Shown in pieces: positions 7,843-27,444 of a stretch of 34,423 bases of DNA; the stretch's first letter is position 1; every line of letters starts with the position of its first letter. This DNA is from Accumulibacter sp. (lineage in GTDB: Bacteria > Pseudomonadota > Gammaproteobacteria > Burkholderiales > Rhodocyclaceae), in the NCBI GenBank assembly GCA_020049495.1, contig JAIFKU010000164.1, positions 1 through 34,423 on the forward strand, read 5' to 3'. The translations under genes were made by a program, and so were the position numbers. A model generated the notes under the pieces. That model was given only the letters and a program-made list of their open reading frames with translations, did not search any database and was not told the origin of the DNA.

Positions 7843-8634
7843 TTACCCCGCCTGATGACACGCGGCATCGATCAATCGACGGGAAATGCTCACCGGGTCC
7901 GGCAGCGTTGGCAGCGCGCTGCGCGGGAACCAGCCCGCCGCCTCGATTTCCGACGGATCTGGGGTGATCGTTCCGGCAGCGTAGTCAGCAAAGAAGGCTA
8001 TCATCAGCGAATCCGGAAACGGCCACGGCTGGCTCTGAAAATAGCGCAGACGGGTAATTTCGATGCCCACCTCTTCGCGCACTTCGCGCACCGCACATTG
8101 CTCCAGGGTTTCGCCGGCTTCGACAAACCCGGCCAGGGCACTGAAGACACCGGGCTTGAAATGGGGGCTGCGCGCCAGCAGCAGATCATCACCACGACTG
8201 ACCAGCACCATCACCGCCGGCGAAATCCTCGGGTAAGCCAGCAGACCGCAGGCCGGGCACTGCATGGAAAATTCAGTCGTTTTCATCGTGGTGGGCGTGC
8301 CGCACCGGCCGCAATAGCGGTGGTTCTTTTTCCAGTCCAGCAGCAGAGCGGCACGGCCGGCGAGGGCAAAGACCTCGGCACCGGCCAGGCCGAACAGGGG
8401 GCGCAGCGACGTCAGTTCCCCGGCAATGCCTTCCGGGAGGCGGTCGACGTCGGCTGCATAGCAAGGCAGCCCTTGCCATTCTCCGACCAGCAAGGCGTCC
8501 GCAGGGTTGCCGAAGTCCTCTGCCCGCCCACGCGGAAAAACCGTTCCAGGAGCCTTGTCAGGGGTAATGAACAGTTGGTTTTCGCAGCGCAGTAGCCAGT
8601 AGCTTGATTCGTTCATGGTGATTGGTTCGTTCAT
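7843..8634 (-). CDS. nudC: NAD(H) pyrophosphatase NudC (also an RNA NAD-cap hydrolase in the family)
   Basis: A 263-aa Nudix hydrolase. The zinc ribbon is CGRCGTP...CPACG (Cys near 108, 111, 126, 129). The Nudix box is GFVEAGETLEQCAVREVREEVG at about 169-190, split by no insertions. The NADH-pyrophosphatase hallmark SQPWPFPDS follows it. The family cleaves NADH or NAD+ to NMN(H) and AMP and, in E. coli, removes NAD caps from RNA. Two candidate starts, 8634 and 8616 (MNESSYW), cannot be separated because neither has a good ribosome-binding site. It is convergent with livF. Confidence 0.93.
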   Translation of the reverse strand: MNEPITMNESSYWLLRCENQLFITPDKAPGTVFPRGRAEDFGNPADALLVGEWQGLPCYAADVDRLPEGIAGELTSLRPLFGLAGAEVFALAGRAALLLDWKKNHRYCGRCGTPTTMKTTEFSMQCPACGLLAYPRISPAVMVLVSRGDDLLLARSPHFKPGVFSALAGFVEAGETLEQCAVREVREEVGIEITRLRYFQSQPWPFPDSLMIAFFADYAAGTITPDPSEIEAAGWFPRSALPTLPDPVSISRRLIDAACHQAG

Positions 8635-9804: not shown

Positions 9805-10875
9805 TCATGCATAGGCGGGCGCGAAGGTTTTTTCTCCTCCATCCACGGGGCCATTCCCGCTCCAGTACGGCGACAGCTTGGGCAACCGGGCGATGATAGG
9901 TGGCACGGCGGTGATGACGCGGTCGATCTCGGATTCGGTGGTGTAGCGCGACAGCGAGAAGCGCGTGGTGCCATGTGCAGCGGTATAGGGAATGCCCATG
10001 GCACGCATGACGTGCGAAGGTTCGAGCGATCCCGAGGTACAGGCCGATCCACTCGACGCGGCGATGCCCTGCTTGTTGAGCAGGAGCAGGATGGCCTCGC
10101 CTTCGACGAACTCGAAAGCGATGTTAGCGGTGTTGGGCAGGCGGTTGGATGAATCACCAGTGACAAAGGAGCACGGTACCTGCGGCAGGATGCCGACTTC
10201 GAGCCGGTCGCGCAGGCGTTTCACTTCGGTGTTCTCAAAGGTCATGTGCTCCAGCGCCAGTTGCGCTGCGACGCCGAGGCCGACGATGGACGCCGCATTC
10301 TCGGTGCCTGCCCGCCGGCCGCGTTCCTGATGGCCACCGCGCAGCAGCGGGCAGAAACGCGTATTACGGCGCAGATAGAGCACACCGACGCCCTTGGGCG
10401 CGTGCAGCTTGTGCCCCGAGAGCGAGAGCATGTCAATCTGCGTTTTCTTCAGGGCTATGGCCACCTTGCCGATCGCCTGCACGGCATCGGTATGGAACAT
10501 GGCGCCGACGGCATGTGCCATCTCGGCCATTTCCTCGACCGGAAACAGCGTGCCGGTTTCATTGTTGGCCCACATCGCCGATACGATGGCCGTACGCGGC
10601 GAGAGCAGCGACCTGTATTCGGCCAGATCGAGGCGGCCCTTCTTGTCGACGCCGAGGCGATGCACGACCATGCCATCCTTTTCCAGATAGTCGCAGAGCG
10701 TGAGAATCGCCGGATGTTCGACGGCCGTGGTGATGATCTGGTTGCGTTCGGGTTGCGCTTTCAGTGCCGAAAGAATTGCCGTCGAATCAGACTCGGTGCC
10801 GCACGACGTAAACACGATTTCCGAATCGTGCTCGGCGCCAAGCAGGGCCTGCACGCGCTCACGGGCTTCTTTACG
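9805..10875 (-). pseudogene. nifS: nifS, 5'-truncated (nitrogenase cysteine desulfurase)
   Basis: NifS is a PLP enzyme that releases sulfur from cysteine for nitrogenase FeS clusters. The remnant keeps AEHDSEIVFTSCGTESDSTA, the PLP-lysine region SGHKLHAPKGVGVLYLRR, the catalytic-Cys motif SSGSACTSGSLEPSHVM and the tail SPYWSGNGPV...FAPAYA. These resemble Azotobacter-type NifS more than housekeeping IscS. About 50 N-terminal residues, including the YLDNNATT segment, are absent. Similarity stops at KEARERVQ (about 10875), where draT sequence on the opposite strand begins. An in-frame GTG at 10854 could start a 349-aa product, but without the N-terminal segment it is unlikely to be a normal enzyme. 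No nifU lies upstream. Confidence 0.85.
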
Positions 10876-11189
10876 CCTACAGCCAATACGAATTCCGGCG
10901 CAGCGCCAACGTACCGGCCAGCATCGAGCTCTATCGCGGCATCAATCACATTGCCGAACACGAAGTGCTGACCGGCAGCAAGCACCGCCAGGTCGTTCTC
11001 TTCAACAATCTGGTTTCATTCACGTCCTCGCGCGAGCGCGCCGGCGAATTCGGCGATTACATCCTGGCCACCCGGGTACCGACGGCGAAAATATTCTTCA
11101 ACTGCGGACTGCTGCCCGGCGTACTCAAGGGAGAGGACGAATACCTGGTCATCGGTGGTGTTTACGACATCGCCATCAGTACGCTCTGA
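10869..11189 (+). pseudogene. draT: draT, 5'-truncated (dinitrogenase reductase ADP-ribosyltransferase)
   Basis: DraT switches off nitrogenase by ADP-ribosylating NifH when ammonium or darkness signals arrive. The remaining ~106 codons are the C-terminal part of the family: LLYAYSQYEFRRSANVP, IELYRGINHIAEHEVL, VLFNNLVSFTSSRERAGEFG, VPTAKIFFNCGLLPGVLKGE and DEYLVIGGVYDIAISTL, ending at a normal stop. Roughly the first 60 percent of the gene is missing, with no start codon or promoter. The 5' end runs directly into the nifS remnant on the other strand. No frameshift is visible in what is left, so truncation looks recent or the join is artificial. Confidence 0.85.
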
Positions 11190-12878: not shown

Positions 12879-13778
12879 TCAGGCCGCCTTTCTCATGGCA
12901 TAAGCCTGTCGGGCTTCAAGGGGTGACATGAAGCCCAGTTTTTCCAAACGCCAATGATGATTGTAACGTTCCTTGAACTCGGTGACGGCAACGCGAACCT
13001 CTTCGACATTGCGGAAGACATGGCCATGAATGGCCTGTTCCTTCAAGGTCCGGTTGAAGCGTTCTGCGACGCCATTGGTCTGGGGTTCGGCGACGTAAGC
13101 GAAACTCGGTGTGACGCCCCAGAACTTGACCTGATTGAGAAAGTCATCGGCCGTATATTGCGTACCGTGATCCATGCGCAGCGTCAGCCCGCGCCCGGCC
13201 TCGGCGCCCGTGGCGCCAAATTCGGACTGGAGCCCCTGGGCGATCGGCTGCAAGGCGGCGAAACGGTTGCCGGTCTTGACCGCATGGATGCCGACACAAA
13301 ATGCATCAAAGTGATCCACCGCCGCGAACACCCAGACCCAACCCTGATCGACGGTCTCGATACGAATACCGTCAGTACCCCACATGTCGTTTGGGCGATC
13401 CGTGGTAATCGTTCCGTCGTGCAGGTTCGCTGCGCCCTGAGGGCGACGATGCGGCGAGAGCAGAGCATTCTCACGCATCAGACGCAATACTCGAGTGCGG
13501 GAGACACGGAGGCTGCGGAGGATACGCAGCCGCGCCCAGACCTTGCGGTGTCCCTCACCGATGAAGGGCGATGCGTCCAGGTCGGCCCGGATGGCAAGCA
13601 AGAGGTCGGCATCCGGAATCTTCGGTTTCGGGCCGCGCCGCACCGGATGCAGGGAAATAACTCTGGCCGATTCACGTTCCTGCTGCGCATAGATCGTCGA
13701 GCGGGGAAAGTCGAGGACTCGACAGACCCGCTCCAGGCCATAGGGCTTGTCAGAACCTGCGGAGGTCTCGCGGCTCAT
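12879..13778 (-). CDS. IS3-family transposase OrfB (DDE integrase domain)
   Basis: A 299-aa retroviral-integrase-like transposase. After an N-terminal HTH_21-type region (EGHRKVWARLRILRSLRVSRTR) it shows the catalytic core: Asp in DMWGTDGI, Asp in LRMDHGTQYTADDFL and Glu in the TNGVAERFNRTLKE motif, i.e. the DDE triad. The start at 13778 overlaps the orfA stop in ATGA, which permits reinitiation or a frameshifted OrfAB fusion. The open frame extends further upstream to 13955, but that extension is orfA DNA read in another frame. No disabling mutation is visible. Confidence 0.92.
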   Translation of the reverse strand: MSRETSAGSDKPYGLERVCRVLDFPRSTIYAQQERESARVISLHPVRRGPKPKIPDADLLLAIRADLDASPFIGEGHRKVWARLRILRSLRVSRTRVLRLMRENALLSPHRRPQGAANLHDGTITTDRPNDMWGTDGIRIETVDQGWVWVFAAVDHFDAFCVGIHAVKTGNRFAALQPIAQGLQSEFGATGAEAGRGLTLRMDHGTQYTADDFLNQVKFWGVTPSFAYVAEPQTNGVAERFNRTLKEQAIHGHVFRNVEEVRVAVTEFKERYNHHWRLEKLGFMSPLEARQAYAMRKAA

Positions 13779-14167
13779 CGCGATGACCTCCGACCGACCA
13801 AAGGGCGTTTGGCCCGCCGCTCCTTTTGCAGGATGTCGACTTCCATGACCAACTCGCCGATGCGCCGGTTGGCCTCGCCGAGCTGCTTCTCGAGCGGATC
13901 GTTCTCGCGTTCCTTGAGGCCGGAATCGATGCCGGCTAATGCCCGGTCGCGCCATTGTTCGAGCTTGTATATCGGCACAGATACTTCACGCGAGACCGCA
14001 TCCACCGATTCGCCACGCAACAGGCGCAGGACAACTTCGCGCTTTCGATTAGTCGACCAGCGCCCCACGATGGCGGCCGCGCCGGGGTCGCCTCCAGTCG
14101 CGCTACACGCTCCTTTCAGCAACACCGGCGCAACCCCAGTTCCATCCTTCTCTCTCAGCATTTCCAA
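13775..14167 (-). CDS. IS3-family transposase OrfA (helix-turn-helix)
   Basis: A 130-aa DNA-binding subunit. A helix-turn-helix is recognisable in KREVVLRLLRGESVDAVSRE followed by VSVPIYKLEQWRDRAL, and a heptad-like leucine zipper, LEKQLGEANRRIGELVMEVD, follows as in IS3 OrfA proteins. The stop overlaps the orfB start by four bases. The start may be 14167 or the ATG two codons on. It would bind the terminal inverted repeats. Confidence 0.85.
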   Translation of the reverse strand: MEMLREKDGTGVAPVLLKGACSATGGDPGAAAIVGRWSTNRKREVVLRLLRGESVDAVSREVSVPIYKLEQWRDRALAGIDSGLKERENDPLEKQLGEANRRIGELVMEVDILQKERRAKRPLVGRRSSR

Positions 14168-14755: not shown

Positions 14756-16372
14756 ATGCCATCACTTGGTTTTCGCAAGAGTCTTCATCTCCTGGCCATC
14801 ATTGCCGGGGTTTGCCTCCTGCTCTCGACACTCGGCGGGGTCTGGCAAGCAACTGTTGCTTCCGGAGCTGCCTCACGGATCTACGAAGAACGGACAGCGC
14901 CGACGATCGAACTGATGAAGGCGGTGGATGCCCTCCATAGAGCACGACAAATCATTCTGATCGCTCTTTCCGAAGAGCGTGAAGAGGTTGCAGAAGCGCA
15001 TCTCGGCAAGTTAAAAATACTGGACGATGCCATGAAGGACGCTCTCAAGGCGTCTGCGGCTGCCGTTCCGGATCAAAGGGAAGCCCTGGCTCAACTGGAA
15101 CTTTTGATTTCCGAGTACAACAAGGTACGTGACCAGTCGGTCAAAATGATTCAAGTTGGTGACTTGCCGAGTGCTTTGGGCAATATCAAGCAGAATGCTG
15201 GACCCAAATTTGACAAGGTTCTACTGGCACTGACTGATGTGATCCAGAGTCAGGCCAATCTGGCCCTCAAGGATTCTCAGGACACGTCGTCCAACCTGAG
15301 AATGCGTACCAATACCCAGATCGTGCTGTCCTTGATGCTATTGCTTGGCATGGGCCTTATTTTTACCTTGATCGTACGTGGTGTCTTCCGGCAACTCGAC
15401 GAAATGGGTAAAACCATAGCCGATGTTGTTCAGCGCGGCGATTTCACCGTCAGTGTACCGGTTAGAGGCAAAGATGAAATTGCCGCTGTGGCCACCAGTT
15501 TCAATGAATTGGTGGCTTCCTTCCGTGGCATATTAAAGACGCTCAATCGAGATGTGCTCAGTGTTGATTCAACGGCGCATGAACTTAGTCAGAACGCTGC
15601 CGCTTCATCATCCAGTGCTTCAACAACCAGCGCCTCAGCGTCGAGCATGGCAGCCGCGGTTGAAGAAATGTCAGTTGGCCTGGATCAGATGCGGGATAAC
15701 ACGACTGTGGCAATCCAGGTAGTTGAAAGCGCCGCGGGGTATTCGAGCAAAGGCGGCGAGGTTATCCACGAGGCCATGAAGGATCTGGAGCATATTTCCA
15801 ATGAAGTGCGTCTGGTGGCCGATCGAATTGTCGAACTGGGCGATCAGACGCAACAGATTTCAAGCGTGGTCGCCCTGATTCGTGAGGTGGCTGACCAGAC
15901 GAATCTGCTCGCATTGAATGCCGCCATCGAGGCGGCCCGAGCCGGTGAGCAGGGCCGTGGTTTTGCCGTGGTTGCCGATGAGGTACGCAAATTGGCCGAG
16001 AGGACTGCCGGGGCAACGCAAGAAATTTCCACCATGATCCAGAATATTCAGAACAGTGCGGCGGCGGCTTCCGACATGATGAAAAAAGCCCTGAGCGACG
16101 CGGATGCAGGGACTTCGCTCGGTCACCAGGCGAGTGCAGCCATCGAACGCATTGAAAAATCCGCCAGTGAAGCCGCGGGGGTCGTCAGGGATATTGCCAA
16201 TGGGATCGCCGAACAGTCAGCCGCGGGCCAGTCTATTGCCGCCAGTGTCGAGCAGGTTGCCCAGGCGGCTGACAACAGCAGGGTGATTGTCGCCAAAACG
16301 GCAGACGCAGCGCGCGTCCTGGAGTCCTTGTCCAATTCCATTCGCGGTCAGATCAGCCATTTCAGGGTCTAG
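14756..16372 (+). CDS. Methyl-accepting chemotaxis protein
   Basis: A 538-aa chemoreceptor. TM1 spans about residues 9-30 and a periplasmic helical sensor (4HB-type) about 35-185. TM2 spans about 187-210, followed by a HAMP domain to about 265 and a cytoplasmic coiled-coil signalling domain. The hairpin tip that contacts CheA/CheW is unmistakable: [20 protein letters not shown] followed by [20 protein letters not shown]. Long Ala/Ser/Glu heptads around it carry potential methylation sites. There is no C-terminal NWETF-type tether for CheR/CheB. Its ligand is unknown; the adjacent Cache protein is a candidate partner. The start follows a weak ribosome-binding site, so a few residues of uncertainty remain. 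Confidence 0.93.
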
Positions 16373-16934: not shown

Positions 16935-16950
16935 TGTCGCAACTGCGACA
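16935..16950. promoter_or_regulatory. NifA-type upstream activator sequence (TGT-N10-ACA)
   Basis: TGTCGCAACTGCGACA is a perfect palindrome of the NifA consensus TGT-N10-ACA. It shares TGTCGCAA with the site upstream of nifV at 20017-20032. Its centre is about 97 bases upstream of the predicted transcription start of the SIR2-like gene, the usual NifA enhancer distance. TGT-N10-ACA occurs by chance several times in 34 kb, so the spacing, symmetry and match to the nifV site carry the argument. Confidence 0.65.
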
Positions 16951-17013
16951 ATGCCACCACCGCGTCACCCTCGGAAAATCGAGCACCCCGAGCATTGGCA
17001 AGACATCACACCG

Positions 17014-17029
17014 CGGCGCGGTTCTTGCG
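17014..17029 (+). promoter_or_regulatory. Sigma-54 promoter of the SIR2-like gene
   Basis: CGGCGCGGTTCTTGCG has the GG-N10-GC core and a full TTGC -12 box. It differs from TGGCAC-N5-TTGCW at the first T, the A of the -24 box and the last base. Predicted transcription start is near 17040, giving a leader of about 22 bases with AAGGA before the ATG at 17062. The match alone would be moderate in GC-rich DNA; the palindromic NifA site at the right distance strengthens it. Confidence 0.55.
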
Positions 17030-17061
17030 GGCACAAGGACATCTACCACGCAAGGACAGCC

Positions 17062-17916
17062 ATGACTCCCCAACTGCGCACCCGCCTCGTAACCGGCCTC
17101 AAGGACGGCAGCATCGTTCCCTATCTGGGTCCAGGTGTCCTCGCCGATGTGCTGTCCACGACGAGCGGCGAGCCGATGCCGGCCAGCAGCGAGCAGTTGA
17201 TCATCGGCCTCAATGGCGGTAAGCCGATGGCTCCGAAGCTGATGTACGAATTTCCGCGCGCGGCGATGAACATCGAACTGAAGCGCGGACGTACCGCCGT
17301 GACGCGTTTTCTCAATACCACTTACGGCAACACACTATGGAGCCGCTCGGCAGTGCACGACTGGCTGCAAACACTCTGCCCGCACTACGTCATCGACATC
17401 AACCGTGACACACAATTGATCGACAGCTATGCCGGTCTGCCGCACACCCTGATTCTCGGCTGCGCGCGCATCGGCGGCAGCGATTACCGCTTCAAACTCT
17501 ATGCCTGCAACGGCGCTGAGTATAAGGAAATCGCCCCGGAGCAGGCCGATACGAGTGTGCCGATCCTGTTCAAGCCGATGGGCGCGCCAATGCCCAAGCC
17601 TTGTTACATTGCCTCCGATGCCGACTATGTCGATTACATAACCGAACTGATGGGCGGCTTCGCGGTGCCGGCATTCGTCAAGACACTGCGTCGCGACAAG
17701 CGCTATCTGCTGCTCGGCATGCGTCTGAACCGCGATACAGAACGCATGGTGCTGGCCGACCTGGTCTATAGTGCCGCATCGCCTGCAGGCTGGGCACTGA
17801 TCGAGAATCCCACGGACAAGGAGCGACGCTTCCTGAAGAAACTCGGAATCGAGTTGATCGAGGCGAGTTTTCAGGAACTGATTGAGATGACGCCAGTCAC
17901 CGTGAATTGCCCATAA
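17062..17916 (+). CDS. Atypical SIR2-like domain protein, candidate NifA-regulated gene
   Basis: A 284-aa soluble protein with the outline of a SIR2-like fold. The N-terminal nucleotide-binding loop is SIVPYLGPGVL (canonical: GAG), the TxNxD-like strand is YVIDINRDT, a putative core segment is ILFKPMGAP where active sirtuins have a His-Gly, and RYLLLGMRLNRDTERMV resembles the late LFLGYSLxD block. The His normally needed for NAD+-dependent deacylation is not visible, so it may bind NAD+ without classical activity. ATG 17062 follows AAGGA. It lies behind a NifA-type site and a sigma-54 promoter and near draG/nifV remnants, suggesting a nitrogen-fixation role. SIR2-like proteins also occur in phage defence; no defence partner is seen here. 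Confidence 0.7.
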   Translation: MTPQLRTRLVTGLKDGSIVPYLGPGVLADVLSTTSGEPMPASSEQLIIGLNGGKPMAPKLMYEFPRAAMNIELKRGRTAVTRFLNTTYGNTLWSRSAVHDWLQTLCPHYVIDINRDTQLIDSYAGLPHTLILGCARIGGSDYRFKLYACNGAEYKEIAPEQADTSVPILFKPMGAPMPKPCYIASDADYVDYITELMGGFAVPAFVKTLRRDKRYLLLGMRLNRDTERMVLADLVYSAASPAGWALIENPTDKERRFLKKLGIELIEASFQELIEMTPVTVNCP

Positions 17917-17920
17917 TGGT

Positions 17921-17943
17921 GTGCGCAGGGGAGTATCGCGCAC
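17921..17943 (+). other. Weak hairpin after the SIR2-like gene
   Basis: GTGCGC at 17921-17926 pairs with GCGCAC at 17938-17943, starting a few bases past the stop codon. There is no T-run behind it, so it could slow or trim rather than end transcription between the SIR2-like gene and the next gene. Confidence 0.3.
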
Positions 17944-18030
17944 CAGATTTGGGTGTTCCATCGAACCTGTCGATTTCCGTGGTGTCCATGTTTTCCATGA
18001 AATCAGCCAGTTGGATCGGGAAACACATTT

Positions 18031-18046
18031 CAGCATGTTTATTGCT
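18031..18046 (+). promoter_or_regulatory. Degenerate sigma-54-like element before the 324-aa gene
   Basis: CAGCATGTTTATTGCT keeps the complete TTGCT -12 box at the right spacing but has AG instead of the near-invariant GG at -24. No TGT-N10-ACA site was found upstream of it within the gap. It may be a decayed promoter or chance; the gene may instead be read from the promoter at 17014. Confidence 0.25.
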
Positions 18047-18079
18047 TGATGAAAAAAATTCCATAAACGGCGCCGCGCA

Positions 18080-19054
18080 ATGACCAACGTACACTCCTTC
18101 TTATACAAACAGCAAGACGATGATTTCCCCCCGGAAGGCACGCGCCGCAAGTTTGCCGATCAGGAAAGGGTGTTTTACGACGGCTACTGGATCAAGACCT
18201 ACCCGGTTCCGGCCGATTCGCTGGACGCCAAGAAACGCTTGATCGAGGCGCTGACCCGGCGCCTGTTCAACCATACCGAACACGGTCTGAACATTCCGGG
18301 ACCCCGGATGGCCGAAGCACGGAAAAGCTATGAGGCCGAAAGCGATCCTGCGCGACGCCGGGTCAAGGGCGCCATGCTGGCTGGTGCGATGTTCAACCGG
18401 GCTACCGACATTTTCAGAAAACTGGTCGAACTGCAGGCCGAAGGAGTGGAAATCAACAGCAGCGATGCGCTGATGCGCGAGTGCGGCAAATGTCTGCTCG
18501 AAGCCATGGAACTGGGCCGTTTCGTTCTCCACCGCAGTGGCGAGGAAGGGATTGACGAACTCTGGGGCGAACCGTTCCGCGTTTTCTCGATTCCGGTCGA
18601 GGATTTCTACGAAAGCCGCTATATCAAGATCGGCCAGAGCATGCGCGATATCGACCGGATCGCCGATGCGATGGTCGCCAATTTCACCCGGATTCCTGCT
18701 TTTTCAAACGTCGAAGCGCCGATTCGTGACTTTGCCCAGGCCGCCAGGATCAAGACGGAAACCCTGCGTACCGATCCGGAGATTTTCGACATCTGGCCGC
18801 AACTGGTTACCGCGGCTGAGCGTCTCGCCAACTTTGCCCCGCAAGCGCCTGCGCTGCTGCCCGTCGTCAATGAGACTCCGTTGTACAGCATCTCGGACGG
18901 CCTGCAACTGATCCGCAGCGGCCGCGATCTGATTTTCTACATCACTCGTGCCCGGACGCCGATGCCCAAGAGCACGCGTGAATATATCGAGCGTTGCGAG
19001 ATTTATCTGCAGACCGGTCTGGCACCGCTGACCCCGGCACCGCTTCCCGCCTGA
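18080..19054 (+). CDS. Conserved-looking hypothetical protein, possible partner of the SIR2-like gene
   Basis: A 324-aa protein that I do not recognise. No signal peptide, membrane segment or nucleotide-binding motif is visible. It is rich in charged helices (for example PGPRMAEARKSYEAESDPAR, LAGAMFNRATDIFRKLVELQ) and ends in a Pro/Ala tail (APLTPAPLPA). A central segment has many aromatics (FRVFSIPVEDFYESRYIKIG). It looks like a cytosolic, mainly alpha-helical protein. It starts 163 bases after the SIR2-like gene on the same strand and could be co-transcribed. No good ribosome-binding site precedes the ATG. Codon use matches the GC-rich chromosomal background, unlike the accessory genes to the left. 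Function unknown. Confidence 0.75.
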   Translation: MTNVHSFLYKQQDDDFPPEGTRRKFADQERVFYDGYWIKTYPVPADSLDAKKRLIEALTRRLFNHTEHGLNIPGPRMAEARKSYEAESDPARRRVKGAMLAGAMFNRATDIFRKLVELQAEGVEINSSDALMRECGKCLLEAMELGRFVLHRSGEEGIDELWGEPFRVFSIPVEDFYESRYIKIGQSMRDIDRIADAMVANFTRIPAFSNVEAPIRDFAQAARIKTETLRTDPEIFDIWPQLVTAAERLANFAPQAPALLPVVNETPLYSISDGLQLIRSGRDLIFYITRARTPMPKSTREYIERCEIYLQTGLAPLTPAPLPA

Positions 19055-19240: not shown

Positions 19241-19772
19241 TCAGCGTGCCGTATCAACAGTCGATGAACAGGCCACCAGCGACCGCGCCTGCGCCAGACA
19301 GGCTTTGCGCACCGCAGGATCGAGCGCCTTGAGCCAGCGCGGAGGAATGGCCGCCAGACCATAATACGCGCCGGCCAGCATGCTGGCGATAGACATGGCG
19401 CAAGGCTTCGCCACGCACGAAGTTCTGTACCGCGAGCACAATGAATTCGCAGGTGGCATCCGAAGCCGGGTTGTGGTGCGTCACGTGGGCCTGAACGCAC
19501 GGCGGCCTCGTCGCTGGTCAGCGTGCACAGCGCGACAGGCAGCACGCGCATGGCTGCGCCATTGCTGGCATCGTATTCCGATGGCGCTGCGCAGGGATCG
19601 CCGTTGCGCCTACAGGCGATCAGATTGCGCCGCACGGTATTGCCTATATCGATCGGCTTGCTGCGCATCCAGCATCAGCACCAGCACCATGCTCGTGTCG
19701 TCGGTGACCTGACCGGGCTTGATTCCCAGTCAGACCCCTCCACGGATTTCGCGATGAATGTCGTACTGGTGC
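19241..19772 (-). pseudogene. draG: draG, decayed (dinitrogenase reductase-activating glycohydrolase)
   Basis: DraG removes ADP-ribose from NifH to reactivate nitrogenase. Fragments of the family appear in order but in shifting frames: [12 protein letters not shown], an in-frame stop, [18 protein letters not shown], then [16 protein letters not shown] and NGAAMRVLPVALCTLTSDEA. After a frameshift comes CVQAHVTHHNPASDATCEFI, and after another SIASMLAGAYYGLAAIPPRW plus LKALDPAVRKACLAQ. Segments are missing after VLVL and before SIASML, including the late metal-binding DADTT region. The 5' end is replaced by nifV codons. With at least one stop, two frame changes and internal deletions, this is a true pseudogene, not a single sequencing error. 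Confidence 0.85.
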
Positions 19773-19928
19773 CGGAATGCCGATCTCCAGCTCCGGCACG
19801 CCGATGGCGTCGAGATGGCTGGCGATATCGATTTTTTCCTCGAGGCTGAACGCGACCCCGGCTGACTGTTCGCCGTCGCGCAGCGTCGTGTCGTTAATGA
19901 CTAGAAAATTGTATTCTGGCTGTGACAT
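19770..19928 (-). pseudogene. nifV: nifV, 3'-truncated (homocitrate synthase)
   Basis: NifV makes homocitrate, the organic ligand of the nitrogenase iron-molybdenum cofactor. The first 53 codons are intact and typical: [40 protein letters not shown] and EIGIPA, including the conserved RDGEQ that binds the metal and substrate. At IPA (19770) similarity stops and draG sequence begins on the same strand; the reading frame runs on to 19644 as a meaningless tail. The start at 19928 has an AGGAG ribosome-binding site and an upstream sigma-54 promoter with a NifA-type site, so the fusion could still be transcribed. More than 300 C-terminal residues of a normal NifV are missing. Confidence 0.88.
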
Positions 19929-19949: not shown

Positions 19950-19965
19950 AGCAATTCCGGTGCCT
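19950..19965 (-). promoter_or_regulatory. Sigma-54 promoter of nifV
   Basis: On the minus strand AGGCACCGGAATTGCT matches GGCAC-N5-TTGCT with exact GG-N10-GC spacing; the first T and the R position of the consensus differ. Predicted transcription start is near 19939, only about a dozen bases before the nifV ATG, with AGGAG in between. This is one of the best sigma-54 matches in the window. Confidence 0.72.
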
Positions 19966-20016
19966 ATAAAATATTCCTTTTGTATTCATGCACTAAGTCG
20001 CACATGACGCCAGTAA

Positions 20017-20032
20017 TGTCGCAAAGAAGACA
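20017..20032. promoter_or_regulatory. NifA-type upstream activator sequence of nifV
   Basis: TGTCGCAAAGAAGACA fits TGT-N10-ACA and shares its first eight bases with the site before the SIR2-like gene. Its centre is about 85 bases upstream of the predicted nifV transcription start. Apart from this site, the sigma-54 promoter and a degenerate repeat at 20133-20217, the 366-base region between nifV and the racemase gene holds nothing recognisable. Confidence 0.62.
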
Positions 20033-26193: not shown

Positions 26194-27396
26194 TCACCAG
26201 TTGGGTTCGCGTTCCGGTGTTGCAGTAATCCTGTGGATGGACAGGTCGGCACCGTCGAACTCTTCTTCCCGATCAAGACGCAGCCCCATTGTCGATTTTA
26301 TCAGGCTGTAGACGATGAAGCTGCCGCTCAGGGCAACAGCAATCGCCATGCCGGTCATGATCAATTGCGGCATGAAGGCAATGCCTCCCGCCCCGCCCAG
26401 CCCCTTTTGCCCGAAGATGCCGGCGGCGATGCCGCCCCAGACGCCGCACAGTCCGTGCAGAGGCCAGACGCCAAGCACGTCATCGATCTTCCAGCGGTTC
26501 TGGGTCAGGGTGAACATGACGACGAACAGGCCCCCGGCTATGCCGCCAACGACCAGCGAACCCATTGGATGCATGATGTCGGAACCGGCACACACGGCCA
26601 CCAAACCGGCGAGCGGGCCATTATGCACGAAGCCCGGGTCGTTCTTGCCGGCGACCAGGGCCACCAGCGTGCCGCCGACCATGGCCATCAGCGAGTTCAT
26701 CGCCACCAGCCCGGAGATCTTGTCGAGCGTCTGCGCGCTCATGACGTTGAAGCCGAACCAGCCGACGGTGAGAATCCACGCACCCAGTGCGAGGAAGGGG
26801 ATGGATGACGGCGGGTGCGCGGAGATCCGGCCTTCCTTGGTGTAGCGTCCGTGCCGCGCCCCGAGCAGCAGCACGGCAGGCAGGGCGATCCAGCCGCCCA
26901 TGGCATGCACCACCACAGAACCGGCAAAATCGTGGAACTCCTCGCCGAAGCTGGCCTTCAGCCAGGCCTGGATACCATAGGCCTGATTCCACGCAATGCC
27001 TTCGAAGAAGGGGTAGATGAAGGCGACGATCAGTAAGGTGGCGACCAGTTGCGGATTGAATTTGGCACGTTCGGCCACGCCACCGGAAATGATCGCCGGG
27101 ATGGCTGCGGCAAAAGTGAGCAGGAAGAAGAAACGGGTCAGTTCGTAGCCGCTCTTCTGCATCAGCGTTTCTGCGCCCGAGAAAAAGTTGATGCCGTAAG
27201 CCACCGAAAAGCCGACAAAGAAATAGGCGATCGTCGATACCGAGAAGTCGACAAGAATCTTGACCAGGGCATTGACCTGGTTCTTCTTGCGCACCGTGCC
27301 CAGTTCAAGGAAGGCAAAACCCGAATGCATGGCCAGCACCATGATGCCGCCAAGCAGAATGAACAGAACGTCACTACCCGATTTGAGCGCTTCCAT
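26194..27396 (-). CDS. amtB: Ammonium transporter
   Basis: A 400-aa Amt/Mep/Rh-family channel with about eleven hydrophobic segments. Signature blocks include FILLGGIMVLAMHSGFAFLE, FEGIAWNQAYGIQAWL and the family motif DFAGSVVVHAMGG with its twin-His site, followed by LGAWILTVGWFGFNVMSAQ and LHGLCGVWGGIAAGIFG. ATG 27396 follows AGGAGG; the frame from 27429 would start inside the sigma-54 promoter. It takes up ammonium when it is scarce. There is no adjacent glnK (the PII protein that gates AmtB), which is unusual. Regulation by NtrC and sigma-54 is likely from the sites at 27429 and 27498. The alcohol dehydrogenase follows 27 bases downstream. Confidence 0.93.
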   Translation of the reverse strand: MEALKSGSDVLFILLGGIMVLAMHSGFAFLELGTVRKKNQVNALVKILVDFSVSTIAYFFVGFSVAYGINFFSGAETLMQKSGYELTRFFFLLTFAAAIPAIISGGVAERAKFNPQLVATLLIVAFIYPFFEGIAWNQAYGIQAWLKASFGEEFHDFAGSVVVHAMGGWIALPAVLLLGARHGRYTKEGRISAHPPSSIPFLALGAWILTVGWFGFNVMSAQTLDKISGLVAMNSLMAMVGGTLVALVAGKNDPGFVHNGPLAGLVAVCAGSDIMHPMGSLVVGGIAGGLFVVMFTLTQNRWKIDDVLGVWPLHGLCGVWGGIAAGIFGQKGLGGAGGIAFMPQLIMTGMAIAVALSGSFIVYSLIKSTMGLRLDREEEFDGADLSIHRITATPEREPNW

Positions 27397-27428
27397 GCGG
27401 CCTCCTGAAAATTTATCGGAGGCACGCA

Positions 27429-27444
27429 TGCAATCTTCGTTCCA
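27429..27444 (-). promoter_or_regulatory. Sigma-54 promoter of amtB
   Basis: On the minus strand TGGAACGAAGATTGCA matches TGGCAC-R-N4-TTGC-W with one change (C to A in the -24 box) and correct GG-N10-GC spacing. Predicted transcription start is near 27418, giving a leader of about 22 bases with AGGAGG before the amtB ATG. Confidence 0.75.

Follow-up and report, generated by a model that had tools for sequence, protein, structure and literature searches.

A probable pnfA orthologue with a predicted SIR2 fold, apparently left behind in a decayed nitrogen fixation locus of Accumulibacter sp.

RESULTS

A SIR2-like gene lies among remnants of nif and dra genes

The window, by which we mean the whole 34,423-nucleotide stretch of an Accumulibacter contig (JAIFKU010000164.1) that was analyzed, contains a SIR2-like gene with an intact reading frame, surrounded by remnants of genes for nitrogen fixation and its regulation (Table 1). 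The open reading frame spans positions 16951 to 17916, and its start was placed at the ATG at 17062 by reference to orthologues. The resulting 31.5-kDa protein scored 29.6 bits against the Pfam model SIR2_2 (cut-off, 24.5). As the preliminary description had stated, it carries a degraded motif, with GPG at residues 23 to 25 and PMG in place of His-Gly at residues 172 to 174.

Table 1. Features of the locus, with positions in the window
Feature	Position	Strand	Remarks
nifS	9805..10854	-	lacks about the first 51 residues; broken 5' end 11 bases from draT remnant
draT remnant	10866..11186	+	last 107 of 298 residues (192-298) remain; 83% identity with L019 DraT
Transposase-type gene	12879..13955	-	integrase core (rve, HTH_21); between draT remnant and pnfA
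Methyl-accepting chemotaxis protein	14756..16372	+	between draT remnant and pnfA
Putative NifA-type upstream activator site, TGT-N10-ACA	16935..16950	+	similar distance in 75/80 orthologue loci
-24/-12 (sigma54-type) promoter element CGGCGCGGTTCTTGCG	17014..17029	+	equivalent element in 79/80 loci
pnfA orthologue (inferred)	17062..17916	+	SIR2-like (SIR2_2, PF13289) nitrogen fixation accessory protein; 284 aa; frame intact
Gene for 324-aa protein	18080..19054	+	function unassigned; common in genus with or without nif; probably no partner
draG remnant	19262..19771	-	four pieces (residues 55-86, 109-171, 173-209 and 271-314 of L041 DraG)
nifV remnant	19770..19928	-	only the N-terminus is left; 19904-19770 matches positions 2-46 of the NifV model; ATG 19928
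-24/-12 element AGGCACCGGAATTGCT	19950..19965	-	before nifV remnant; read by eye
Second TGT-N10-ACA site	20017..20032		upstream of nifV remnant

The neighboring draG and nifV remnants, reported previously, are present. The NifV model matched its remnant with an E value of 5.9e-19; the same model also finds matches in all 14 control genomes, and the name nifV therefore leans on the draG neighbor. Searches of the window genome, which is 85% complete, did not detect nifD, nifB, or NifA. The organism looks like a former diazotroph. A deletion appears to have brought nifS up against the end of draT. The transposase-type gene, together with other genes, separates draT from pnfA, and draG and nifV are fragmented; pnfA and its promoter are still intact. 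Pairwise dN/dS values between the window gene and nif-bearing relatives were 0.12 to 0.20, compared with 0.10 to 0.22 among the relatives themselves, and relaxed selection following nif loss was not detectable by this measure. Such a pattern would be expected if nif was lost recently, but also if the window copy serves a second function.

The promoter of the SIR2-like gene is conserved among orthologues

The putative upstream activator site, TGTCGCAACTGCGACA, falls within a perfect 8-bp inverted repeat, TTGTCGCA-AC-TGCGACAA, and both this site and the -24/-12 element CGGCGCGGTTCTTGCG lie 5' of the predicted start codon. Taken alone, neither motif is informative. TGT-N10-ACA occurs 7 times in the window versus 4.4 expected, which is within chance (17 of 100 shuffles reach 7); the -24/-12 element is a modest match to the consensus (9 of 12), and a loose search for such elements returned 383 matches versus 355 expected. 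We therefore relied on conservation across 80 orthologous loci, the best 80 of 493, which are mutually related and thus not independent. TGT-N10-ACA was found 70 to 180 nt before the start in 75 of them (50 Markov shuffles, mean of 1.2 and maximum of 5; inside the gene, 0/80). A GG-N10-GC element, counted when its score was at least 8 of 12, was found 40 to 62 nt before the start in 79 loci (shuffles, mean of 2.3 and maximum of 6; inside the gene, 3/80). Both elements occurred together, at similar distances, in 75 loci. From the conserved placement of these sequence elements across orthologues, we conclude that the predicted promoter is real. Conservation rules out a chance promoter, and a promoter belonging only to draT is ruled out by the site lying directly 5' of the SIR2-like gene even at loci where kilobases separate the two genes. 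The earlier proposal of a SIR2-like gene controlled by NifA and sigma54 is thus upheld at the level of predicted elements.

The gene is tied to nif and nifT

Of 59 genomes, 18 carry the SIR2-like gene, the window genome included, and 17 of these have a complete or fragmented nifD (P about 1e-11, kinship ignored); the sole carrier lacking nifD is the window genome itself. A phylum-wide sample of 398 genomes contained 17 carriers, of which 14 had nifD above the cut-off (P about 6e-13, kinship ignored) and 15 had nifT; nif genes lay within the fetched stretch at 15 of 16 loci. As a family, then, the gene goes with diazotrophy, the window genome being an exception. These data agree with the suggestion that it is a nitrogen fixation accessory gene, and homologues proved to be neither mostly non-diazotrophic nor located in phage defense islands, as shown by the co-occurrence with nifD and the lack of any match in 50,697 phage records. 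The family is a recurrent, unexplained component of proteobacterial nif clusters: 40 genomes in the phylum sample have nifD, and 14 of them carry the gene while 26 do not. Because these 26 lack it, and because the Mesorhizobium loti gene msi351 is dispensable for symbiosis (the mutant being fully effective; PMC3538637), its role in nitrogen fixation is not universal.

Gene order in relatives was read by tblastn with identified proteins. The usual arrangement in Rhodocyclales is nifKDH / draT-SIR2 / draG. nifH was found in 52 of the 80 loci, whereas the window retains only remnants of other nif and dra genes; in 52 of 52 loci with both nifH and draT, nifH runs opposite to the SIR2-like gene and draT in the same direction. 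This order, together with a fold shared with NAD+-binding proteins, would suit a third part of the DraT/DraG switch, one that adjusts NifH ADP-ribosylation in response to NAD+ or ADP-ribose. Indeed, 56 of the 80 loci have draT upstream in the same orientation, 48 have draG downstream in the reverse orientation, and 36 have both (many contigs are cut), and the association of the gene with DraT over the 398 genomes is weakly positive (P = 0.005). However, DraT was detected in 5 of the 17 carriers, one of them being the window genome with its remnant, and 12 lack it. Within the 40 nifD-bearing genomes the association is negative (both, 4; SIR2 only, 10; DraT only, 22; neither, 4; kinship ignored). 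Moreover, in alpha- and gammaproteobacterial loci the gene adjoins or is near nifT; in 7 of the 8 plasmid loci opened, namely the rhizobial ones, it comes just after nifT, and no draT or draG is annotated in the stretch shown for those 7. The link to the NAD+-using DraT/DraG pair proposed in the preliminary description therefore stands for Rhodocyclales gene order and fails in the phylum sample. We regard the DraT/DraG partner reading as weakened and improbable; the SIR2-like gene is tied to nif and nifT, not to DraT.

The 324-aa neighbor is probably not a partner

The protein encoded downstream had been proposed as a partner of the SIR2-like protein. It has no family match and no PDB sequence match, and its predicted fold (pLDDT, 70.1) gave no PDB match at an E value of 0.001 or better. 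The gene occurs in 24 of the 59 genomes, 11 of which lack the SIR2-like gene and 11 of which lack nifD; in one genome the two genes are 575 kb apart. Over the 59 genomes it is positively associated with the SIR2-like gene (P = 0.0016) and with nifD (P = 0.004); within the genus, the association with the SIR2-like gene has a P value of 0.08 (both, 12; 324-aa gene only, 9; SIR2 only, 1; neither, 6). It follows the SIR2-like gene on the same strand, 62 to 2,821 bases away, in 7 of the 80 loci, and its placement is therefore old in some lineages. Given its occurrence without the SIR2-like gene and without nifD, and at a distance, a partnership is unlikely, and the 324-aa gene is probably no partner of pnfA.

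The protein has a predicted SIR2 fold and lacks the full catalytic pair

Structure prediction, put forward earlier as a check, yielded a SIR2 fold with a pLDDT of 92.6. The nearest solved folds are those of the phage defense NADases DSR2 and KomC (TM about 0.6). KomC was also matched by sequence, at 2.4e-5, in a PDB search with the mixed profile A2; this match depends on the mixed profile, because a profile built only from close relatives (referred to as betas) found no SIR2 chain. Both similarities could point to a defense-type SIR2 NADase unrelated to nitrogen fixation. This reading is extremely improbable: the co-occurrence with nifD speaks against it for the family, relatives show nif context and a NifA-type promoter, and a defense gene is ruled out by the lack of any PADLOC defense-model match for the gene and of any homologue in the phage records.

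The position of the catalytic Asn was mapped by HMMER alignment, while we take the catalytic His to correspond to residue 173 from motif context; HMMER places the His region of KomC at query residues ~150 to 153, with moderate support, and not at 173. In the 95 betas, Asn114 is present and the His position holds Met, Leu, or Cys (His, 0/95). In 24 other aligned sequences, Trp replaces the catalytic Asn in 20, and His-Gly is lost in 13. None of the 120 aligned sequences has both the Asn and the His of SIR2 NADases. Sirtuin deacylases are characterized by GAG, His-Gly, and zinc cysteines. In the betas, the middle residue of the glycine motif is Pro in 86 of 95 and Ala in 5 of 95, and no cysteine is invariant or 90% conserved among 54 aligned sequences (A1). 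Asp112 and Asp116 are retained; the glycine turn is conserved, as are several residues that we take to be pocket-lining (G23, D112, D116, and G174).

Because 0 of 120 sequences keep both catalytic residues, a non-cleaving NAD-type sensor appears likelier than a deacylase. The protein could nevertheless retain enzymatic activity through altered chemistry, working on nitrogenase proteins as a deacylase or NAD+ hydrolase. The retained Asp112, Asp116, and, in betas, Asn114 favor such activity, as does a study of Zymomonas in which ZMO1821 is proposed from its annotation to be a deacetylase and nif proteins are acetylated (PMC8600466). The loss of His-Gly or Asn across the family and the lack of a conserved cysteine make it unlikely.

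DISCUSSION

The family is not unstudied, contrary to what had been suggested. Its features agree with those of PnfA (PST1325) from Pseudomonas stutzeri A1501, for which promoter, expression, and mutant data exist (PMC2820453), and msi351 has also been mutated. PnfA expression depends on NifA and RpoN, and the protein is required for full nitrogenase activity: the mutant retained 23% activity with normal nifH mRNA and lost nitrate-supported fixation (PMC2820453). pnfA is oriented opposite to nifHDK, and the named homologues are 49 to 92% identical to the A1501 protein; one in Dechloromonas aromatica RCB is given as a 54% homologue (PMC2820453). The main text of that paper does not contain the word Sir2; PST_1325 is listed elsewhere as "SIR2 family protein" (PMC11332353). 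The window gene resembles PnfA in its predicted NifA-sigma54 promoter including TGT-N10-ACA and in protein size (31.7 kDa reported); its relatives are linked and opposed to nifHDK and go with diazotrophy. A search of 13 genomes through named loci turned up exactly one family member in each, and five of these genomes bear the title Dechloromonas, in line with the homologue reported from that genus. Unlike the P. stutzeri locus, the window appears to have lost its nif core. Set against PST1325 by description, the SIR2-like gene is very probably a pnfA orthologue that survived intact when the nif locus around it was deleted.

Overall, the best explanation, to which we assign a probability of roughly 0.6, is that the gene is a pnfA orthologue encoding a NifA/sigma54-controlled nitrogenase accessory, left behind after nif loss, that may bind an NAD-type ligand. 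As to mechanism, we tentatively propose that PnfA lost NAD+ cleavage, that its old SIR2 pocket would bind NAD(H) or ADP-ribose, and that through protein contacts it may keep nitrogenase or its electron supply active during respiration of oxygen or nitrate. A more specific version, in which a phage-defense-type SIR2 NADase was turned into a non-cleaving NAD(H)/ADP-ribose sensor holding nitrogenase active during respiration, with the two subfamilies losing catalysis separately (through His or through Asn), is speculative and rather unlikely as a whole. PnfA might instead act with NifZ/NifT in nitrogenase assembly or protection, the SIR2 fold being a mere scaffold with no nucleotide ligand. The proximity of nifT and its presence in most sampled carriers are consistent with this, and the P. 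stutzeri authors suggested a role in electron transfer or oxygen protection (PMC2820453). Yet conservation of the glycine turn, G23, D112, D116, and G174 would not be required of a pure scaffold, and the P. stutzeri mutant is also defective during nitrate respiration in the absence of oxygen (PMC2820453); this possibility is somewhat doubtful.

What is new here is the recognition, in a predicted model, of a SIR2 defense-NADase fold and of the lack of a complete catalytic pair in the PnfA family. It gives PnfA function its first testable form, the binding of NAD(H) or ADP-ribose, and connects the phenotype of the mutant described in 2010 with rhizobial, Rhodobacter, and Zymomonas genes that carry the annotation "SIR2"; such nif cluster genes should not be called deacetylases. 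In addition, the window clearly exemplifies nif locus decay. If the non-cleaving sensor reading is true, PnfA would represent a second NAD-linked posttranslational control of nitrogenase beside DraT/DraG.

The genes of the DraT/DraG switch are neighbors of pnfA in Rhodocyclales, but they encode separate protein families, and 12 of the 17 sampled carriers have no DraT match. The predicted fold resembles those of KomC and DSR2, and KomC is also of comparable length (264 aa); unlike them, the PnfA family lacks the catalytic His and/or Asn, and no defense context was found. A SIR2-like annotation and a nif location are shared by Rcc03262 of R. capsulatus, which was not found in a nifA double mutant, msi351 of M. 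loti, ZMO1821 of Z. mobilis, and a gene of the R. etli symbiotic plasmid; the first three are likened to the window protein by annotation and location. The rhizobial plasmid relatives were found by tblastn at 24 to 30% identity (among the 60 of 72 matches listed). The rhizobial members that were aligned form a second subfamily, with Trp for the catalytic Asn and mostly located after nifT.

A conserved NifA-type promoter precedes the SIR2-like gene

The 284-aa SIR2-like gene of the window, which we infer to be an orthologue of pnfA (discussed below), follows a TGT-N10-ACA site and a -24/-12 element; comparison with orthologues placed its start at ATG 17062. The window holds 7 TGT-N10-ACA matches versus 4.4 expected, and the motif alone is no evidence. 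The promoter counts as evidence because it is conserved across orthologous loci. In the best 80 of 493 such loci, the upstream site was present 70 to 180 nt 5' of the start in 75, the -24/-12 element at 40 to 62 nt in 79, and both together in 75, as the preliminary description of a NifA/sigma-54-controlled gene had led us to expect. Fifty shuffles of the upstream regions gave at most 5/80 and 6/80, respectively, and equal-length stretches within the gene gave 0/80 and 3/80. By title, these loci, which are related and not independent, are mostly Rhodocyclales (Dechloromonas, Azonexus, Propionivibrio, Accumulibacter, Zoogloea, and similar); the remainder comprise several titled only Proteobacteria, Betaproteobacteria, or Gammaproteobacteria, one Comamonadaceae, and one Thiobacillus. 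Since the promoter elements directly adjoin the SIR2 gene even where up to 9 kb separate it from draT, the gene seems, judging by its upstream sequence, to form its own NifA unit in the relatives.

Table. Positions of the features discussed
Feature	Position	Strand	Remarks
NAD+ diphosphatase gene	7843-8634		PRK00241 above cut-off; two genes from nifS remnant
nifS remnant	9805-10854	minus	Begins at NifS model position 52
draT remnant (C-terminal third)	to 11186	plus	Begins at residue 192, 11 bases beyond nifS end
Cut nifS adjoining draT remnant	9805-11186		Likely scar of nif-core deletion; nifS cut N-terminally
TGT-N10-ACA site	16935-16950		TGTCGCAACTGCGACA, embedded in TTGTCGCA-AC-TGCGACAA
-24/-12 element	17014-17029		CGGCGCGGTTCTTGCG, upstream of pnfA start
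SIR2-like gene (probable pnfA)	17062-17916	plus	284 aa
Neighbouring gene	18080-19054	plus	324 aa
Second NifA-type promoter	19950-20032		Ahead of nifV stump; TGT-N10-ACA at 20017-20032; AGGCACCGGAATTGCT at 19965-19950, minus strand
Ammonium transporter-like gene	26194-27429		301 versus 343 bits, under curated Amt cut-off

The SIR2 gene is tied to nitrogen fixation

Against Pfam, the protein scored 29.6 bits for SIR2_2 (cut-off, 24.5), and it had no match among NCBIfam or PADLOC models. The gene occurred in 18 of 59 genomes, the window's own included, and 17 of these carriers have nifD, above the cut-off in 15 and in pieces in 2 (G008 and G025). Two genomes have nifD and lack the SIR2 gene (G006 and G034); five with weak nifD-like matches only (E of 2e-26 or worse; G012, G017, G020, G024, and G035) were scored as nifD-less. 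In a 398-genome sample of the phylum, SIR2 matches fell into two classes: full-length and strong (E of 2e-78 or better), or fragmentary and accompanied by a full copy in the same genome. In co-occurrence tests that ignore kinship, 14 of the 17 carriers in this sample had nifD above the cut-off, 15 had nifT, and 5 had DraT, the remnant in the window counted. The three carriers without nifD above the cut-off were G126, whose only match was of NifE strength; G309, with a match of that strength plus a broken nifD fragment; and the window's own genome, with none. The gene was missing from 26 of 40 nifD-bearing genomes. In this sample, the proposed link to both nitrogenase and DraT held for nifD but not for DraT. 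Across the 40 nifD genomes the SIR2 gene and DraT were negatively associated (both, 4; SIR2 gene only, 10; DraT only, 22; neither, 4), which kinship may explain. Two carriers of one genus, G309 (L154) and G101 (L169), hold SIR2 fragments elsewhere in the genome in addition to the full gene, and their nif proteins are near-identical to those of R. etli.

Apart from the window, 16 phylum-sample loci were taken with up to about 10 kb per side; nif genes were visible in 15 (all except G126), and 9 had the order nifB, nifZ, nifT, SIR2 gene. Plasmid matches (n = 72) came from Rhizobium, Sinorhizobium, Mesorhizobium, and Bradyrhizobium (70), Methylococcus (1), and Paraburkholderia (1), and all 8 plasmid loci opened were nif loci. 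At least one of nifH, nifD, nifK, nifB, draT, and draG was visible in 69 of the best 80 of 493 loci. Within the bounds set by contig ends and locus length, draT lay 5' on the same strand in 56 of the 80, draG 3' on the opposite strand in 48, and both in 36. In Propionivibrio dicarboxylicus, nifK, nifD, and nifH on the minus strand are followed by draT and SIR2 on the plus strand, then by draG on the minus strand, a flavorubredoxin-like gene, and nifB. The flavorubredoxin-like gene (nitric oxide/oxygen reductase type; L041, 12522-14210), with matches in 33/80 loci, is close to draG and nifB in many Rhodocyclales nif loci.

The 324-aa gene had been proposed as a partner, a role that these data do not bear out. 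It was present in 24/59 genomes (21/28 within the genus), including 11 without the SIR2 gene and 11 without nifD, and followed the SIR2 gene in 7 of the best 80 of 493 loci. The two were positively associated over the 59 genomes (P = 0.0016) and less so inside the genus (P = 0.08), perhaps mostly through both being commoner there. More plausibly, it is a gene widespread in the genus that also occupies this position.

A SIR2 fold is predicted, without the full catalytic pair

An AlphaFold2 model (54-sequence input; pLDDT, 92.6) predicted a SIR2-type fold. The best solved structures among the 50 Foldseek matches listed of 332 were DSR2 and KomC (TM about 0.6; 13 to 16% identity). A profile of 18 diverse members matched KomC at 2.4e-5, aligning the TTNYD motif with D-x-N/W-x-D; a beta-only profile matched no SIR2 chain among PDB chains. 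We compared residues in 95 close relatives, termed betas (L002-L016 together with L019-L098, a set in which some sequences come from both searches), and 24 further members. Residue 114, the catalytic Asn, is Asn in 95/95 betas and Trp in 20/24 others. Residue 173, which we take to be the catalytic His position from the P-x-G and following S-D-x-D-Y context of the SIR2_2 motif (the HMMER alignment with KomC stops short of it), is His in none of the betas (Met, 89; Leu, 5; Cys, 1) and in 11/24 others. The degraded His-Gly motif noticed earlier is general among the betas, with P172 and G174 kept. None of the 120 sequences, the window protein included, has both Asn and His, and G23, E72, R77, H99, D112, D116, G133, P172, G174, D186, D188, V190, R228, and E254 are invariant or almost so family-wide. 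Thus, the sequences suggest that the family keeps many fold residues and lacks the catalytic pair, whose absence takes two forms.

The window as a probable relic of a nif locus

One deletion appears to have taken out the segment between the nifS and draT remnants, a stretch that in relatives holds nifH and the remainder of draT. Transposase-type, hydrolase-type, and chemotaxis genes lie between draT and pnfA. The draG and nifV remnants reported beside the SIR2 gene are indeed such: draG is in four pieces and nifV comprises about the first 45 residues. In the window's own genome, nifD, nifB, nifT, and an above-cut-off NifA were not found, an absence that is likely real but not certain because this genome is 85% complete. 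The SIR2 protein has 0 deviations at 61 positions 99% conserved among betas, and its dN/dS against relatives, 0.12 to 0.20, is similar to that among the relatives themselves (0.10 to 0.22).

Relation to PnfA and known systems

PST1325 of Pseudomonas stutzeri A1501 was named pnfA in 2010, in a report that gives its expression as NifA and RpoN dependent and its product as sharing 54 to 55% identity with proteins from Dechloromonas aromatica RCB and Azoarcus BH72 (PMC2820453); a 2024 paper lists PST_1325 among SIR2 family proteins (PMC11332353). Promoter, size, gene order, co-occurrence with diazotrophy, single-copy presence, and the Dechloromonas homologue named in the 2010 report together make the window gene a probable pnfA, with PST1325 compared through its published description. 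A single SIR2-family copy was present in 13/13 genomes reached via named loci, 5 of them titled Dechloromonas. The module had been called unstudied, and yet pnfA expression and mutant data were already published. As reported there, a nonpolar P. stutzeri mutant had 23% nitrogenase activity under microaerobic conditions with nifH mRNA unchanged, matched the wild type anaerobically without an acceptor, and lost nitrate-supported fixation while still Nif+ (PMC2820453). In Rhodobacter capsulatus, the series nifB1-rcc03265-nifZT-rcc03262 is preceded by putative NifA and RpoN sites; the product of its last gene, Rcc03262, was undetected in the proteome of a nifA double mutant (PMC6925177). Mesorhizobium loti msi351, called sirtuin-like, lies downstream of a NifA-regulated promoter, and its mutant was fully effective (PMC3538637). 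Zymomonas ZMO1821 is in the nif cluster, its deacetylase role being a guess (PMC8600466, PMC8594446), and a Rhodovulum figure legend places the gene after nifT (PMC9412634). Our search of the open-access literature found no biochemical study of a PnfA-family protein.

NifA and sigma54-RNA polymerase would turn pnfA on together with nif, as others have shown in relatives and as the conserved elements here suggest. PnfA would then act posttranscriptionally, as in P. stutzeri, possibly binding an NAD-type ligand without cleavage and sustaining nitrogenase, or the electron supply to it, while the cell respires. Because the P. stutzeri defect is seen with oxygen and with nitrate and is absent without an electron acceptor, a redox link would fit better than oxygen protection alone.

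In predicted fold, the window protein resembles DSR2 and KomC, the SIR2 NADases of phage defense. It resembles P. stutzeri PnfA in both promoter elements (TGT-N10-ACA and -24/-12) and in size (31.5 versus 31.7 kDa). P. stutzeri pnfA is oriented opposite to nifHDK (PMC2820453), as the P. dicarboxylicus SIR2 gene is to nifKDH.
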